64,000 nucleotides of DNA from Verrucomicrobiota bacterium (GTDB lineage Bacteria > Verrucomicrobiota > Verrucomicrobiia > Chthoniobacterales > JAFAMB01): contig JAFAZK010000053.1 of NCBI GenBank assembly GCA_019239825.1, positions 1-64,000 of the forward strand, given 5' to 3'. The notes under the pieces were generated by a model. The model did no database searches, was not told where the DNA came from, and saw only the letters and a list, made by a program, of their open reading frames with translations. Positions 7,224-24,062 of the stretch are shown piece by piece; the stretch's first letter is position 1, and every line of letters starts with the position of its first letter. The translations under genes were made by a program, and so were the position numbers.

Positions 7224-7283
7224 CTGATTTCGGGCGCGACCCGTTCGGTCGCGCCACCAATCAGCAATCGCCTCTCACTTCTG
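7196..7283. repeat. Inverted pair of 7-nt arrays around a perfect 9-bp hairpin, between convergent genes
   Basis: agtaagcagtaagcagtggttggt ... ggcgcgacc-cgttc-ggtcgcgcc ... ccaccaatcagcaatcgcctctcacttctg. Confidence 0.65.
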
Positions 7284-9440
7284 CTTCTTCGCCATTTTCT
7301 GGCCTCCTGATTCGGCGCCGAGTTCGTAGGCGAAGAAAGAGAACAGATCAGTTTGGTCAGCGACTTGTTGGTCGAGAGAGCTCCCGATACCATGTCCAAA
7401 TGAGTTAATTCGGAGCAGGATCGGATTCCCTGGCGCGGCAGCCGCTTGTAAACGGGCAGTGAACTTAAAGGAATTCCACGGAGCCACCCGCCCGTCATTC
7501 AGACCCGCGGTCATCAGGATGGCAGGATATTTTGTGCCATCGACTACGCGTTCATAAGGCGAGTAAGCTAAGAGGGCTTTTAGCTGGGCCGGATCTTTCA
7601 CGCTGCCATACTCCGTGGTGTTAAAGACGCCGTTTGGATAAAACTCAGTCCGCAGAGAATCGTAGACCCCAACCTCGGACACGACTGCTCGCATCAAGCT
7701 CGGATGTTGGGTGATCATCGCCCCCATCAAGAGCCCGCCGTTGCTGCCGCCAAGCATCCCGAGTTTAGAAGTCGTTGTATACCTATGATCGAGTAGATAT
7801 TGGGCGCAGGCAGTGAAATCGTCGAAGCAGTTTTGTTTGTTCGTGAGGTTACCACCTTTATGCCATTCCTCCCCATATTCGCCGCCCCCGCGGATATTCG
7901 TATCGACAAAAATCCCGCCAAGATCATACCAAGCTCGAAAAGATAATCGGACCCGGGGAATTTCGCTCAAACCATACCCGCCGTACCCGTAAAGGATCGT
8001 CGGATGAGTTCCGTCCAGATTAATCCCTTTCTTATGAATGATATTGAGAGGAATCTTGGTTCCATCTTTCGAGACCGCGAAATCTCTGGTGACTTCCATA
8101 TCCGCGAAATTCACCGGCGCCTCGGAACTGAGCTTCGTGGATGTTAGTTCATTGGTTCCCGCGTCATATTTAAACCACTTGGCGAGCTCGGTATAACTCC
8201 CGACGTCAGCCAACACCAGATGCTCGCCAGCAGCTAACTGCGAAACACTCGAGATCGGTGGCAGAGCCACCGTCTTCTGATCCGAACCGTCGAGGCTGTA
8301 TGAATAAAGACCGGAAGGTCCACCTTCCAAAGTCTCCACAACCAGGCGATCGGTGGTCACCGCGATGCTTTGGATCACACCTTCACCGGCCGGAACTACC
8401 GCTTCAGGCTTAACGTCGGGAGTATCCAAGCCAAACTTCACCACTTTTCCGTGAGGCGCGTCCTGCAGCGATACTGCATAAAAAACGGGGCCGAAACCGA
8501 GTGCACCGGTTTTAATCTGGTCCTCGAATTTAGTAATCTGGCGCCAGCTTTTGTCCGGCCCATAAACGAAGTGAGCAAAATCCCCACCGTCCCCGTTCGC
8601 TACGGTCGCGACGATGTAGTCAGAAGCACCGTTCGACTGGAGCGCCACCTCCGCGATCTTCGGAAACTCTTTCCCGATAGAGTAGGTGTCTTCAGATTCC
8701 GGTGAACCAAGTTTGTGGAAATAAACCTGCATGTAGAAATTCCGGTCTTCAGCCGGCCGTTCGCCTTCTCTCGGATAGCGGGTATAAAAAACTGCCGCAC
8801 TATCCTTGGTCCAAGCCGCGCTTCCGCCGCCGGTTGGGAATTGGACATGTTTAATTACATCCGGAAGCTGCTTGCCGGATTCGACATCAAAAAAGCAGAG
8901 ATCTCCGTCTTCAGTGCCGTTCTTGGAGAGAGATACTGCGAGAGTTTTGCCGTCCGGTGACGGCACAAACCAGTCGATAGACGTTTTGCCGGAAGGATCG
9001 AGACTGTTGGGATCACAAACGGTTTTCTCGCTGGCCGGATCTTCCGGCGAAGTCGTCACCACCACAAATGCCTGCTGCTTGGCGGGGTCAATTTTCAGCC
9101 CGAAAATCTTATCAGCGCGCACTTCAACGAGCGCCAGCCTCGGCGGCGTAGAACTGATCAGTTTCTTTATTTGATTAGCTAGTTGCGTGCGGCCAGGGAG
9201 CGAGTTCAGGAACTTTTCCGATCGCTCATTTTGCTTTTCCGCCCAGGCCTTGACTTTCGGATCGCTCAACTGCTCCATCCAGCGATAGTCGTCTTTTACA
9301 GTAACACCACCGAAATCATCGGTGACCGGTTGTTTAGTAGTAGCCGGGGCAGCTTCAACGGAAGGCACTCCGGCCTGGCCGGGTGCTGAAAGAAAAAAAG
9401 CTGAGCACACTAGCCCAAGAGGGACCAAAAATTGTCTCAT
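7275..9440 (-). CDS. Prolyl oligopeptidase family serine peptidase (S9), secreted
   Basis: YGYGGYG, IRGGGEYGEEWHKGG and GGSNGGLLMG motifs; signal-like MRQFLVPLGLVCSAFFLSAPGQA starting at 9440 (track ORF extends to 9683). Confidence 0.95.
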   Translation of the reverse strand: MRQFLVPLGLVCSAFFLSAPGQAGVPSVEAAPATTKQPVTDDFGGVTVKDDYRWMEQLSDPKVKAWAEKQNERSEKFLNSLPGRTQLANQIKKLISSTPPRLALVEVRADKIFGLKIDPAKQQAFVVVTTSPEDPASEKTVCDPNSLDPSGKTSIDWFVPSPDGKTLAVSLSKNGTEDGDLCFFDVESGKQLPDVIKHVQFPTGGGSAAWTKDSAAVFYTRYPREGERPAEDRNFYMQVYFHKLGSPESEDTYSIGKEFPKIAEVALQSNGASDYIVATVANGDGGDFAHFVYGPDKSWRQITKFEDQIKTGALGFGPVFYAVSLQDAPHGKVVKFGLDTPDVKPEAVVPAGEGVIQSIAVTTDRLVVETLEGGPSGLYSYSLDGSDQKTVALPPISSVSQLAAGEHLVLADVGSYTELAKWFKYDAGTNELTSTKLSSEAPVNFADMEVTRDFAVSKDGTKIPLNIIHKKGINLDGTHPTILYGYGGYGLSEIPRVRLSFRAWYDLGGIFVDTNIRGGGEYGEEWHKGGNLTNKQNCFDDFTACAQYLLDHRYTTTSKLGMLGGSNGGLLMGAMITQHPSLMRAVVSEVGVYDSLRTEFYPNGVFNTTEYGSVKDPAQLKALLAYSPYERVVDGTKYPAILMTAGLNDGRVAPWNSFKFTARLQAAAAPGNPILLRINSFGHGIGSSLDQQVADQTDLFSFFAYELGAESGGQKMAKKQK

Positions 9441-9500
9441 GGCCACCAAGGATGCACGGGCGGAGACAGAAAGCAATGAGGTCTGGGCCCTTGGGGTCCT

Positions 9501-9717
9501 TTGGTAGGGCGAGGCTCCCGCACAGCACCGTGATTCACCAAGGGTATACAACTCGAGCGCCCAGATACGAATGAGCAGGGCCAAAAGACGCGCCGAGCCA
9601 TGGGCAAAGATACACCAACGGCTCGGCACGATTTGAGGTGTAACCATACGGGTAACCTTAAGATTACCAATCGTTTCGCCCAAAGGAGTGGATCGTTCGG
9701 GAGCCTCGCCCCATCAA
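9501..9717. repeat. Family B nested inverted-repeat element, copy B1
   Basis: Outer ttggtagggcgaggctcccg / cgggagcctcgccccatcaa; inner cgcgccgagcca / cggctcggcacg. Confidence 0.8.
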
Positions 9718-17578: not shown

Positions 17579-17626
17579 AGCTTGCATTGCCGGCAAATGG
17601 CTAACCATTTGCCGGCAATGCAAGCT
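17579..17626. promoter_or_regulatory. Perfect 22-bp stem hairpin with 4-nt loop spanning the TPR gene start
   Basis: agcttgcattgccggcaaatgg-ctaa-ccatttgccggcaatgcaagct; candidate ATGs at 17597 and 17618 lie in opposite arms. Confidence 0.9.
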
Positions 17627-18088: not shown

Positions 18089-18173
18089 GGAAAATCTCAC
18101 ACAAACCCGCGAGGGCGGAGAGTGAAAACCGCAACGGACGTCGTCCCGCAGGCGAGAGACTATTCTGCAGAGA

Positions 18174-19037
18174 TTAGCTGAGGCGTGGATTAGACTTCAC
18201 CAATCGCTTCGAGTAGCCTAAGTCGGTTAGCCGGGAATAAAACTCCAGATCGACAATTTCAAAGTCCGCGCTCGGAGGGACAAACATAGAAGTGTCGTAA
18301 TCAATAAATTTCGCAGATTGCGGAATGTCTCGAATAGCTACTGCTCGCTTTACTGGACGGAGGCGAGAATCAAACTTGCTGACCAGAAGCAGACATCGAT
18401 GCTGAGGCGGGTAGTGTCGAAGTAAATAGTCCCTAAGGATTTCAAATCGTCGTGCTCGGTTTGTGCGTCTCTCGGTTATAAAGCCGCTGCCGATTGCTCC
18501 CGGTTGAAGAAGAAAAAGTGGGACGCGAGGATCCGGCGAAATAGAAAAGTAAATAAACCGGTTACACTCGAAAACCTGCAAGCCATGCCGACCAATCTCT
18601 AGCCCTAACTGAATAATCATTGTATCCAATGAGGAGATTCCTGGTAATGCAGTGGCCTTTATCCCCAAAAGGCGAGCCTCATCTAAAATTAGAGTTGACG
18701 CGGTTACGTAGATCAGTGGATGGCCAGGAACCAAGAAACACACGCGGTCGTAGCTCTTCGTCGCATCGATGACAGTTTTGGCGATCTGCGCATAGACATC
18801 TTGATCAAAAGCGCCCTCGGTATAAGCGCTGCTGAGATCAACGAGCTTAGTCCCTAGCGTATGCAGGTAAGCCGTCATTCTAGGGTTGGAATCAAGTAGA
18901 TAAAAGATTATCGCACTTGCCCGCATTGTCCGATCCGCCTCTAGAGTGAGGTGATCTGGACTGAGCACACCTGCGCCAATGATTGTTATCTTGGACAATC
19001 GAATCTCTTTTGTCTGGCCTCGGGGTGACCTAGCCAT
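18174..19037 (-). CDS. Tetrapyrrole-methylase-fold SAM methyltransferase resembling borosin-type peptide backbone N-methyltransferases
   Basis: ITIIGAGVLSPDHLTLEA, VDLSSAYTEGAFDQDVYAQIAKTVI, VPGHPLIYV, ALPGISSLDTMIIQLGLEIGRHGLQVFECNRFI and SMFVPPS segments align by eye with remembered OphMA/SonM sequences. Confidence 0.75.
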   Translation of the reverse strand: MARSPRGQTKEIRLSKITIIGAGVLSPDHLTLEADRTMRASAIIFYLLDSNPRMTAYLHTLGTKLVDLSSAYTEGAFDQDVYAQIAKTVIDATKSYDRVCFLVPGHPLIYVTASTLILDEARLLGIKATALPGISSLDTMIIQLGLEIGRHGLQVFECNRFIYFSISPDPRVPLFLLQPGAIGSGFITERRTNRARRFEILRDYLLRHYPPQHRCLLLVSKFDSRLRPVKRAVAIRDIPQSAKFIDYDTSMFVPPSADFEIVDLEFYSRLTDLGYSKRLVKSNPRLS

Positions 19038-19141
19038 CAGTCGATTGAGGCAAGTGCGAGAGCAAGACGAGCAGACAACTGAGGAAAGTGCTGCTTACTC
19101 ACTTGCATCCAACTTCGAGAAAGATTCCCCGGCTACACCGT

Positions 19142-19312
19142 CTACGTGGTTTTCTTTGCTTTGCTCGTCCGAGGAGAAGGCGTTTTCGGTGCCGGCTCTG
19201 CCAATTTATCCAGCGCGTCCAAGGCTCGGTCAATAGCCTGTTTAGCATTTTCCAGGTGCTTCTTTGCTTCTAGTAAGGGCTCGGTTACATGTTGTAGTCT
19301 CTTTGCTGGCAT
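19142..19312 (-). CDS. Small helical protein with K/P/T-rich tail (56 aa)
   Basis: MPAKRLQHVTEPLLEAKKHLENAKQAIDRALDALDKLAEPAPKTPSPRTSKAKKTT; ggag 7 nt upstream of the ATG; an alternative start at 19534 overlaps the kinase stop (ATGATTGA). Confidence 0.6.
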   Translation of the reverse strand: MPAKRLQHVTEPLLEAKKHLENAKQAIDRALDALDKLAEPAPKTPSPRTSKAKKTT

Positions 19313-19530
19313 CTCGGATCTCCGCGGTAAGACTTCGATGTCGCCAGAAACTCTGTGACTTGGCCTCCAGCCACCGAAGCTGTAACCATCTCCTCTATCG
19401 TTTTCGCCTTTTTCCGGCAACCTATTTTGCAGCAGAATAATGCTGGCTGGAGACGCGGTCGCAATGGCATCCGTCTTGCCGGCTTCGACCTGGCCGTTGA
19501 ACCTGTAACACCACGGGCAAGCGCTGCCGA

Positions 19531-22377
19531 TCAATCATGCGGTGCAAGCTCGGCTAACAACCGTTCAAAGCGCGGGTCGGTCCGGAGAGAGTCTAACGCT
19601 GGATTGAGCTTTAATTCTCCAAAATCAATACCTCCGGGCGTCTTTACGGCAATTTTTAGCTGTCCGAACGCCAAGTCCGGCTCACCGGTCCAAGCATAGG
19701 CCATGGCCAAGTTGAAAACCAGGGCCGGACCGTCCATCGCATCTTCGGAAATAGGCAGCATTTCAACCGCGCGGCGTGTTTCCCTTAAGGCATCTTCTTT
19801 GCGACCCAAAGCGGCGTCGACAACGCCAAGGGCACTTAAGAGGCTAGGATTGTTGAGGTCGGCTTCGACCCTTCGCTCAAGCTGGTCGCGTAAAGCAGAG
19901 AATCGCGGTTCCGTCATCGGTTGATCGCCCCGGACCTTTGCCAGCCAGATCTCCACGGATCCACGCGGAACTACGGTCTCGTGAAGGAACGAAAGATCTT
20001 CATTCTGACCAGTTCGGAGTATGTCCTGGGCTGTGGCCCAGTCGTGCGCCAGAGCCGCATAGAAAATGCGCTGAGAAGCAAAACCAATGTCATTTTTCAT
20101 TGAGGAGGGAAGCGCTTCTAAAGCCGCCCGATAGCCCGGGAGATCCGCGTTTTCCGCGAAAGCGCAGTAAGCCTTTTGTAAGATGAAGATCGGGTTTTCG
20201 GGCTCGAGTTCGAGCAGGGCATTACAAGCCTCCTCAGCTTGTCGATGACGTCGAAGACAGAGATAGTTGAATTCCAAATTATTAATGACGTTCGGGTTTC
20301 GCGGGTCGAGCGTGCGGGCCATTTGCAGAGCCTTGATCGAGTCGTCCCAGCGACCTTGTCGCCGATCGATGTAGGCCCTAAGCGCAAGAGCAGCAGGACT
20401 GTTGGGGAGCGCTCGCTCAGCGATGGCTATCTGGACAGAGGCTCGCTGATAACTTCGGTAACACTCGTACAGATGATAGGCCACCGCCAAATGAACTTCG
20501 GGAAGATCAGGTCGCAGCCGCAAGGCCTCGTTGACCGCAGCATCCCCGAGTCCGCGTCTCTCTGGCGTGTGATCCAGGAGTGAAAAATACAAATCGTCGT
20601 GCGCTCGAGCCACTAAGCAATAGGCCAGAGCAAATTTCGGATCTTTCCGGGTTGCCTCTTCCAGGAGCTTAACCACGTTCAGAAAGCTCTCGCGGTCGTG
20701 ACCGATGAAGAGTTCGGCGCCCACGATCAGCGCCTTAGCCTGCAGATAAAGATCGTAAGCCTCTAAATCGTTAGTCGGCTTGTTGTCGATTTCCTCCTTT
20801 TCCTCAGTAGATAACCGCGCGCTCAACTTCGCTACCACGGTTTTGGCAATGTCGTTTTGGATGTCAAATATGCTGGTCAGGTCTCGGTCATAGCTGTCGG
20901 CCCAAATCGTATTGTCATTGCGAGCATCAATTAACTCAGTGCTAACCCGCACATGATTTGCCTCACGTCGGACCGTTCCTTCCAAGACGTTGGCCACGCC
21001 CAATGCCATGGCGATTTGGCGCAGATCGCGTTTTGTATCCGCGCGATACTGCATTACTGAAGTTCGGCTGATGACTTTCAGTTGTGCGATTTTGGCGAGA
21101 TCATTCAGAATCTCATCCTGTACTCCGTCCGCGAAGTAAGCGTCATCTTTGTTCGGGCTGATGTTGTCAAAAGGAAGGACGGCTATGCTTTTTTCGGTGG
21201 TTACCGCTTCGGCAGGTTGCTGATTGAATAACCAGGCGGCGCGGCCGGATAGGAAAAACCAAGCAACTAATGCTACGGCAAGAGAGGAGCCTACACCAAG
21301 CAACCAGCGAACGATCTTGTTTGCCGGCTTTCCTTCTGAGGAATGTTTTTTCGCTCGGTCGCCGGTAACTTTCAACTCGGCCGTCGTCAATCGTAACTCG
21401 AAAGCGATTGTTTCTCTGACCTTTGCTACGGCCTGCTGCAACTGAGCAGGAGTTTGGAAACGCCGGCTAGGATTCTTCGCGAGCAACTCCTGAAGTAACT
21501 CGATTACCGGTACCGGAACGTTCTTTAATTTTTCAACCGGCGGCTCCGCGTGTTGATGCAGGTATATCAGCTCCGTGACGGAGCCGCTGAAAGGTAACTG
21601 GCCGCTGAGCATTTCCCAAAACGTGACACCGAGTGAATACAGATCAGAACGAATATCGGTTACGAGCCCGGCAAACTGTTCGGGGCTGGCGTAAGCAGGT
21701 GTACCAATAAAGACTCCCACGGTTGAAAGCGCATTTTCCTCCGCGCCCCCCTTGGCCAAGCCCAGGTCGATAATTTTGACGTCCTCCAACTTCCCGTCCA
21801 GCAAGCTGACCATGATGTTCCCCGGCTTTATATCCCGATGGACGAGGTGCTGTTTTTCAATCGCTGCTAATCCCGCCGCCACTTGTCCCAAAATGTCGAG
21901 AGCCAGGTTGAGTTGGAGGCAACCGGAGCGGCGAATAAGCGCTGCCAGGCTTTCACCTTCGACCAACTCCATCGCGTAATAGTGATTGCCGCCGCATTCC
22001 CCGATATGGAAGACCGTAGCCACGTTCTGGTGCCGGACACTGGCTGCAGCTCGAGCCTCTCGTACAAAACGGGCTCGAGCTGACTCATCGCCTAAGAACT
22101 GAGCATTGATGATCTTGAGGGCAGCCGGACGCTGGAGATGGACATCAAACGCTTTGTACGTCACTCCCATGCCACCGTGACCGAGCTCAAACGGTTTACC
22201 CTCTTCATTTTGGAGAACGGTGTAATGCTCAAAACGAAGCTCGGAAAAGCTATTCGAAACCACGTGGGTTTGTGTCTCGAGAGCCTCTTTAAAGGCACAT
22301 AATGGACAGAATACGTCGTAGTCCGCCAATTGCGTACCACACACCGAGCAGACTCGTTTCCCAGGAGGCGTTTCCAC
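19531..22377 (-). CDS. Eukaryotic-like Ser/Thr protein kinase with TolB-like and TPR domains
   Basis: LGHGGMGVTYKAFD, HRDIKPGNIMV, GTPAYASPEQ; SIAVLPFDNISPNKDDAYFADGVQDEILNDLAKIAQLKVISRTSVMQYR; TPR C-terminus. Confidence 0.95.
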   Translation of the reverse strand: METPPGKRVCSVCGTQLADYDVFCPLCAFKEALETQTHVVSNSFSELRFEHYTVLQNEEGKPFELGHGGMGVTYKAFDVHLQRPAALKIINAQFLGDESARARFVREARAAASVRHQNVATVFHIGECGGNHYYAMELVEGESLAALIRRSGCLQLNLALDILGQVAAGLAAIEKQHLVHRDIKPGNIMVSLLDGKLEDVKIIDLGLAKGGAEENALSTVGVFIGTPAYASPEQFAGLVTDIRSDLYSLGVTFWEMLSGQLPFSGSVTELIYLHQHAEPPVEKLKNVPVPVIELLQELLAKNPSRRFQTPAQLQQAVAKVRETIAFELRLTTAELKVTGDRAKKHSSEGKPANKIVRWLLGVGSSLAVALVAWFFLSGRAAWLFNQQPAEAVTTEKSIAVLPFDNISPNKDDAYFADGVQDEILNDLAKIAQLKVISRTSVMQYRADTKRDLRQIAMALGVANVLEGTVRREANHVRVSTELIDARNDNTIWADSYDRDLTSIFDIQNDIAKTVVAKLSARLSTEEKEEIDNKPTNDLEAYDLYLQAKALIVGAELFIGHDRESFLNVVKLLEEATRKDPKFALAYCLVARAHDDLYFSLLDHTPERRGLGDAAVNEALRLRPDLPEVHLAVAYHLYECYRSYQRASVQIAIAERALPNSPAALALRAYIDRRQGRWDDSIKALQMARTLDPRNPNVINNLEFNYLCLRRHRQAEEACNALLELEPENPIFILQKAYCAFAENADLPGYRAALEALPSSMKNDIGFASQRIFYAALAHDWATAQDILRTGQNEDLSFLHETVVPRGSVEIWLAKVRGDQPMTEPRFSALRDQLERRVEADLNNPSLLSALGVVDAALGRKEDALRETRRAVEMLPISEDAMDGPALVFNLAMAYAWTGEPDLAFGQLKIAVKTPGGIDFGELKLNPALDSLRTDPRFERLLAELAPHD

Positions 22378-22543
22378 CGTATGCCGTTTGCTGCGGGAAT
22401 TTTACTCGGTTTGGCCTATGCCTCACGAAAAATCGTCGGCGCTGGCCTCAGCCCCGTCCCCAAATGAAACGCGATCTAGGGCGGAAGAAAAGACATATCC
22501 CGGGTGAACGCGTAAAGATACAGAGAAGGTCGCACCGCGGTAC

Positions 22544-22640
22544 ACGGATAGGACCTATTGGATCCCTAGGACGTTCTTGAGGACGCATCTGCAGCATACG
22601 CGCCGACCTACGGGTCCTAGCGGCCCTTAGGTCCCATCCG
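22544..22640. repeat. Inverted pair of 9-nt arrays (GGATAGGAC type)
   Basis: ggataggac/ctattggat/ccctaggac ... acctacggg/tcctagcgg/cccttaggt/cccatccg. Confidence 0.7.
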
Positions 22641-22720
22641 TCTGCTGCGCTATGGTTCTCTTCTCTTTGCTTGCTTCGCTTTGGTGCGACTTGAGGCCCT
22701 CCGGTGAGACTATTCTTCCC

Positions 22721-23854: not shown

Positions 23855-24062
23855 AGTTCAACCGCAGATGGACGCAGATAACAGGACAAGAACCGCGAAT
23901 GGACACGAATGAACGCGAATAGATTCGGACCGACCACAGAGACACAGAGAACCAAGAGACTTCTGGAACCATCCCTGTAAGTCTCACTCCGTGGTATCTC
24001 TGTGTCTTTGTGGTGAATCTTTTCATTATTCGCGTCCATTCGCGTCTATTCGCGGTTAGGTT
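23855..24062. repeat. Inverted pair of 10-nt (and 9-nt) arrays (AACGCGAATG / CCACAGAGA types)
   Basis: accgcgaatg gacacgaatg aacgcgaata ... ttcgcgtcca ttcgcgtcta ttcgcggtta. Confidence 0.8.

Follow-up and report, generated by a model that had tools for sequence, protein, structure and literature searches.

A soil Verrucomicrobium encodes, on contig JAFAZK010000053.1, a 287-residue protein (P0001) which we read, at about an even chance, as a divergent borosin-lineage peptide methyltransferase whose substrate or chemistry has shifted. Within the window (the whole 64,000-nucleotide stretch of the contig that was analysed) its gene occupies positions 18174-19037 of the minus strand, where all 287 codons are open, while the plus strand of the same interval is full of stops. 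An earlier note, made from the sequence alone, had reported a real reading frame with the correct coordinates, but had left its strand unstated. Two start codons are possible, an ATG at 19037 and, 13 codons further in, a TTG. The Pfam TP_methylase family matches the product at 7.5e-20. The gene has a GC content of 48.8% vs 54.1% and atypical codon usage, and it is known in our data from one sequence only. The features on which the argument depends are the following.

18093 to 22715, no strand assigned: 4.6-kb segment with methyltransferase, 56-residue reading frame and kinase, delimited by synteny with two same-genus genomes.
18174 to 19037, minus strand: borosin-like TP-methylase P0001, 287 residues (reading-frame calling, Pfam, PDB search, alignment).
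18726 to 18728, minus strand: P0001 codon P104.
18792 to 18794, minus strand: P0001 codon Y82.
18804 to 18806, minus strand: P0001 codon D78.
18822 to 18824, minus strand: P0001 codon Y72.
19142 to 19312, minus strand: putative coding frame of 56 residues, Lys/Ala-rich, its tail predicted to be basic; it lies between the genes for the kinase and the methyltransferase.
19531 to 22377, minus strand: Ser/Thr kinase with TPR repeats, 948 residues, of a large paralogous family (domain search).

A place for P0001 in or next to the borosin methyltransferase lineage had been proposed beforehand, and the PDB search, Foldseek and the trees agree on it. A single-sequence phmmer search of the PDB ranked SonM first (1.9e-19), with OphMA-type borosins at 2.7e-19 to 2e-15, OphMA itself at 5e-18, and alignments to SonM and OphMA that cover residues 10-265, nearly the full length; in the same search the uroporphyrin-III methylase match reached only 7.6e-4. 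Judged by sequence comparison, the relation to borosins is far above chance, and SonM/OphMA are nearer to its TP-methylase domain than are the methylases of the corrin, siroheme or RsmI type. All NCBIfam corrin profiles scored far under their cut-offs, and P0001 has GHP rather than the GDP motif of corrin and siroheme enzymes (CobA, CbiF etc.). The best partial match among these profiles was YabN, whose N-terminal methylase domain resembles residues 17-161 (1e-15), with a score of 57.7 of 525 bits that lies far under the family cut-off; P0001 has no MazG domain and does not match YabN over its full length. The same profile matches residues 4-257 of a Serratia relative, described below, at 7.8e-18. 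YabN was tried as a tree outgroup and set aside, as its matches in this phylum span the MazG half only and yielded no usable N-terminal sequence.

An AlphaFold model of P0001, built from six sequences, was of moderate quality (pLDDT 72.7, pTM 0.62). The top 50 Foldseek matches listed for it were all borosin enzymes, SonM being the best, and superposition of this moderate model gave global TM values of 0.44-0.49 at about 10 A rmsd, which backs resemblance at the level of the family but no finer detail, the groove included. In trees of P0001, 18 other borosin-type sequences and the TP-methylases of its own genome, P0001 falls on the borosin side of a branch with 99/97 support, apart from its own genome's TP-methylases. 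When the signature columns are left out, its placement inside the borosin side is not resolved, and in the AU test a position basal to all sampled borosins is not rejected (p 0.195). The phylogenetic check that the earlier note had called for thus does not place P0001 among precorrin, RsmI or CobA-type enzymes. Its remark that no cobalamin or siroheme genes lie nearby is true of the 27 reading frames tested between window positions 284 and 41517; the corrin/siroheme-type methylases of this genome sit on other contigs.

Two characterised enzymes provide the frame for the active site: SonM, the split type IV borosin alpha-N-methyltransferase of Shewanella oneidensis (PDB 7LTC), which like P0001 is a two-domain TP-methylase, and OphMA, a fused fungal borosin methyltransferase (PDB 5N0O). 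Aligned to both, P0001 presents the expected motif blocks in order, namely the GxG loop, two tyrosines with nine residues between them, GHP, PGIS, FEC and FVPP. Both peptide-contacting tyrosines are kept as Y72 and Y82 (SonM Y58 and Y71; OphMA Y66 and Y76), as are GHP, PGIS, E157 and Q178 (SonM E146 and Q167), and the YPP/VPP motifs are intact. The suspicion that the catalytic Arg (SonM R67, OphMA R72) had become Asp is upheld by the alignment, which puts D78 at this site. Three further departures had escaped notice: the SAM-contacting Tyr before GHP (SonM Y93, OphMA Y98) is P104, the ‘bottom lock’ Trp (SonM W166) is L177, and a BBD-type precursor is lacking. In addition, N159-R160 follows E157-C158 at a site that is mostly T/S-D in other borosin-type sequences. 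The changes at D78 and P104 occur together in only two of the 19 borosin-type sequences, P0001 and a Serratia plasmid protein; in the others the Arg is invariant (17/17) and the Tyr nearly so (16/17). The roles of R67, Y71, Y58, Y93 and W166 in SonM have been described, and its R67A mutant has trace activity only and R67K about 1% of kcat/KM, while Y93F keeps more than half of kcat/KM (PMC8429565). In the literature searched, outside the subscription journals that carry much of borosin genome mining, no description of an Asp/Pro variant was found.

A peptide substrate was sought with a profile of the BBD precursor built from seven relatives. By this profile no BBD-type precursor is present in the window or in the genome, which is 96% complete in 349 contigs. 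The profile was positive in two related Verrucomicrobia, G126 (1.9e-23) and G477 (3.6e-20), but both contributed to it, so that these hits prove that the search works and do not measure its reach. Such a precursor lies just upstream of the methyltransferase in canonical Verrucomicrobiota relatives (L010/L016, L012) and in relatives from elsewhere (L014, L017, L018, L020, L024). Unlike OphMA, P0001 carries no fused C-terminal core; at 287 residues it has no extension past the methylase domain and ends 20-30 residues past its VPP motif. The proposal that P0001 falls in the split-borosin clade was not borne out: the profile found no SonA-like BBD precursor in window or genome, the Arg essential in SonM and the SAM-contacting Tyr are replaced, and the AU test leaves the basal position standing at the p value given above. 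Filing P0001 as a split borosin is not supported.

On the strand of P0001, the 56-residue reading frame, with its ambiguous codon usage, is the sole candidate for a substrate encoded next door. It matched no family, showed no BBD similarity and had no homologue among 56 relatives. As a core peptide of the Serratia type it was rejected (no similarity to the HPRLQAAAPMNLAKVIGGF repeat, shuffle p 0.42), and so was a tandem-repeat precursor close to P0001, there being no repeat array near the gene. Nor was a peptide hydroxylase (TIGR04267) found elsewhere in the genome.

The protein closest to P0001 by identity is a split-borosin-type methyltransferase of an Opitutaceae genome from the same bacterial class (L011/L012, G477; 32% identity, E 6e-35). 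Unlike P0001, it keeps R...Y and YGHP, and next to its gene lie those for a BBD/NHLP-type precursor, part of which is Thr-rich, and for an aKG-HExxH hydroxylase-like protein. This locus (L012:3588-5558, Opitutaceae MAG IP29b_bin.74) is itself a split-borosin-type cluster, with the NHLP-like precursor bearing the Thr-rich TTTTTTVITTTTTTTTTT, a canonical methyltransferase and the convergent aKG-HExxH peptide hydroxylase-like gene. In the same-order genome G126, L010:1444-2773 (the same record as L016) holds another pair of the split-borosin type, in which repeats of PQPPQIGPS form the end of the precursor.

The one other protein found with the D/P/N-R signature of P0001 is a methyltransferase on plasmid p2-125 of Serratia liquefaciens (WP_185959442.1; L019/L028, NZ_CP033895), 26% identical to P0001. 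It likewise has Asp at the R67 site, VPGHP and an N-R that follows the E/D-A/C pair, and it lacks the bottom-lock Trp. Directly upstream lies a precursor-like reading frame of 77 residues with three 19-residue HPRLQAAAPMNLAKVIGGF repeats, which differ pairwise at 13-14 of 57 nucleotides, all synonymously; that the differences are synonymous only indicates selection on the peptide. The match of this frame to the bactofencin A family is weak (2.9e-4, below the cut-off). Downstream are genes for a 308-residue HExxH protein and a 2OG-Fe(II) oxygenase; the MFS transporter gene that comes next is on the opposite strand. The stretch L028:7714-10450, with the HPRLQAAAPMNLAKVIGGF peptide, the D/VPGHP methyltransferase, the HExxH protein and the 2OG-Fe(II) oxygenase, constitutes a candidate RiPP cluster. 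A plasmid of S. marcescens carries the peptide at 96% identity but has a broken methyltransferase. Unlike the Serratia protein, P0001 has no triple-repeat peptide, HExxH or 2OG-Fe(II) oxygenase gene nearby. Shared ancestry of the two proteins receives 93/89 support in trees that include the signature columns and is not resolved in trees that leave them out. The occurrence of the same substitutions in two distant proteins that conserve the tyrosines speaks for a variant that functions rather than for random decay.

The gene lies in a segment of uncommon distribution. Two same-genus genomes align collinearly with its contig at 83-91% identity but lack positions 18093-22715, and their flanking genes stand 177 and 300 bp apart. 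The 4.6-kb segment is most simply read as gained by transfer, the alternative being its loss from both congeners. Contamination was considered, the assembly being 8% contaminated, and rejected in view of this collinearity. Searches of 213 genomes of the order, and of samples of 384 genomes from the class and 388 from the phylum, turned up no close homologue of P0001; a contig profile search returned nothing with P0001 alone and canonical relatives only with a three-sequence alignment, and no viral or phage homologues were found. Beyond the 3' end of the gene lies a convergent TPR gene, and upstream on the same strand come the 56-residue frame and then the kinase. A kinase-methyltransferase module was rejected: in G126 too a kinase lies upstream of the borosin gene, but it is only 32% identical to that of the window and is not its best match there, and since the family also has tens of copies per genome, the adjacency is judged incidental.

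Several other observations concern the surroundings. The Ser/Thr kinase/TPR family is expanded in G000 (the present genome), G002, G003 and G126, each of which has 28-43 matches to the kinase of the window, and kinase domains number 26-39 per congeneric genome. At 17579-17626, at the start of the TPR reading frame, there is a perfect 22-bp inverted repeat with a 4-nucleotide loop, 96% kept in the two congeners. About 23859-23925 lies a dispersed repeat, of which stretches of 30-33 nucleotides, many 100% identical, recur at dozens of sites in G002 and G003. A prolyl oligopeptidase-family gene (7275-9683, minus strand) sits 8.5 kb from P0001, outside the inserted segment; on plasmids L018 and L020, genes of that family adjoin borosin-type genes.

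As a divergent peptide methyltransferase of the borosin lineage, P0001 was probably acquired horizontally, may still bind SAM and a peptide, and would methylate that peptide using SAM through a changed active site. In the canonical enzymes the Arg positions both the Tyr and the carbonyl of the substrate and contributes to stabilising the deprotonated amide (PMC8429565), and Asp in its place argues against the standard amide reaction in P0001. The positive charge might instead be supplied by R160, which the Serratia protein also has, or by the Arg-rich ERRTNRARR (residues 190-198), which aligns with the top clamp of SonM; alternatively, D78 could serve as the general base towards a different nucleophile, for example a side chain. 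If the Serratia case is a guide, P0001 may act on a short peptide that lacks a BBD leader. A more specific version can be put forward only tentatively: the D78/P104 proteins may form a distinct borosin-derived subclass of RiPP methyltransferases that act on short, BBD-less peptides by chemistry free of the canonical Arg, possibly side-chain methylation, in which case the Serratia substrate would be three tandem cores and the charge would have moved to R160, or the Asp would be the base.

The main rival, which we think rather unlikely, is that P0001 is an inactive or decaying borosin paralogue, one that arrived without its precursor and is drifting, or that survives as a binding protein only. 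The near-inactivity of SonM R67A means that loss of the Arg may be loss of function, and here the SAM-contacting Tyr has gone as well. The gene's isolated place in a lineage-specific insertion, its unusual GC content and codon usage, the failure of the profile to find a BBD precursor in window or genome, and the broken S. marcescens copy of the Serratia relative all suit such a history. Against it, the frame is open over 287 codons with GxG, GHP, PGIS, both tyrosines and YPP/VPP intact, and the identical substitutions recur in the intact S. liquefaciens protein.

Two other accounts appear improbable to a similar degree. P0001 might be an ordinary split-borosin backbone N-methyltransferase whose precursor was missed because it lies elsewhere, in an assembly gap, or is divergent, as the 56-residue frame could be, an account that also requires another residue in the role of the Arg. 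The borosin homology seen in the PDB search and by Foldseek would fit, as would a genome in 349 contigs and 96% complete, and the canonical relatives of the same phylum have their precursor exactly where the 56-residue frame sits, with the methyltransferase on one side and an upstream gene on the other. That frame, however, has neither BBD nor core similarity, the BBD profile was negative in window and genome but positive in both control genomes, and the Arg is invariant in the 17 borosin-type sequences other than P0001 and the Serratia protein. A non-borosin TP-methylase with a non-peptide substrate, its nearest known profile being the YabN N-terminal domain, would likewise be a surprise: the E-values of that profile on both proteins and the p value of a position outside the borosins speak for it, but YabN reaches just the small fraction of its bits noted above with MazG absent, the SonM and OphMA matches run nearly full length, the top fold matches are borosins, and the Serratia relative adjoins a peptide gene.

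There is no settled account of how borosins deprotonate the backbone amide: the behaviour of SonM mutants speaks against the active-site Tyr as the direct base, although the Arg is required (PMC8429565). Natural enzymes without this Arg, one of which has an obvious candidate peptide next to it, would put the borosin mechanism to a direct test, and they could widen the range of peptides methylated by the borosin fold.
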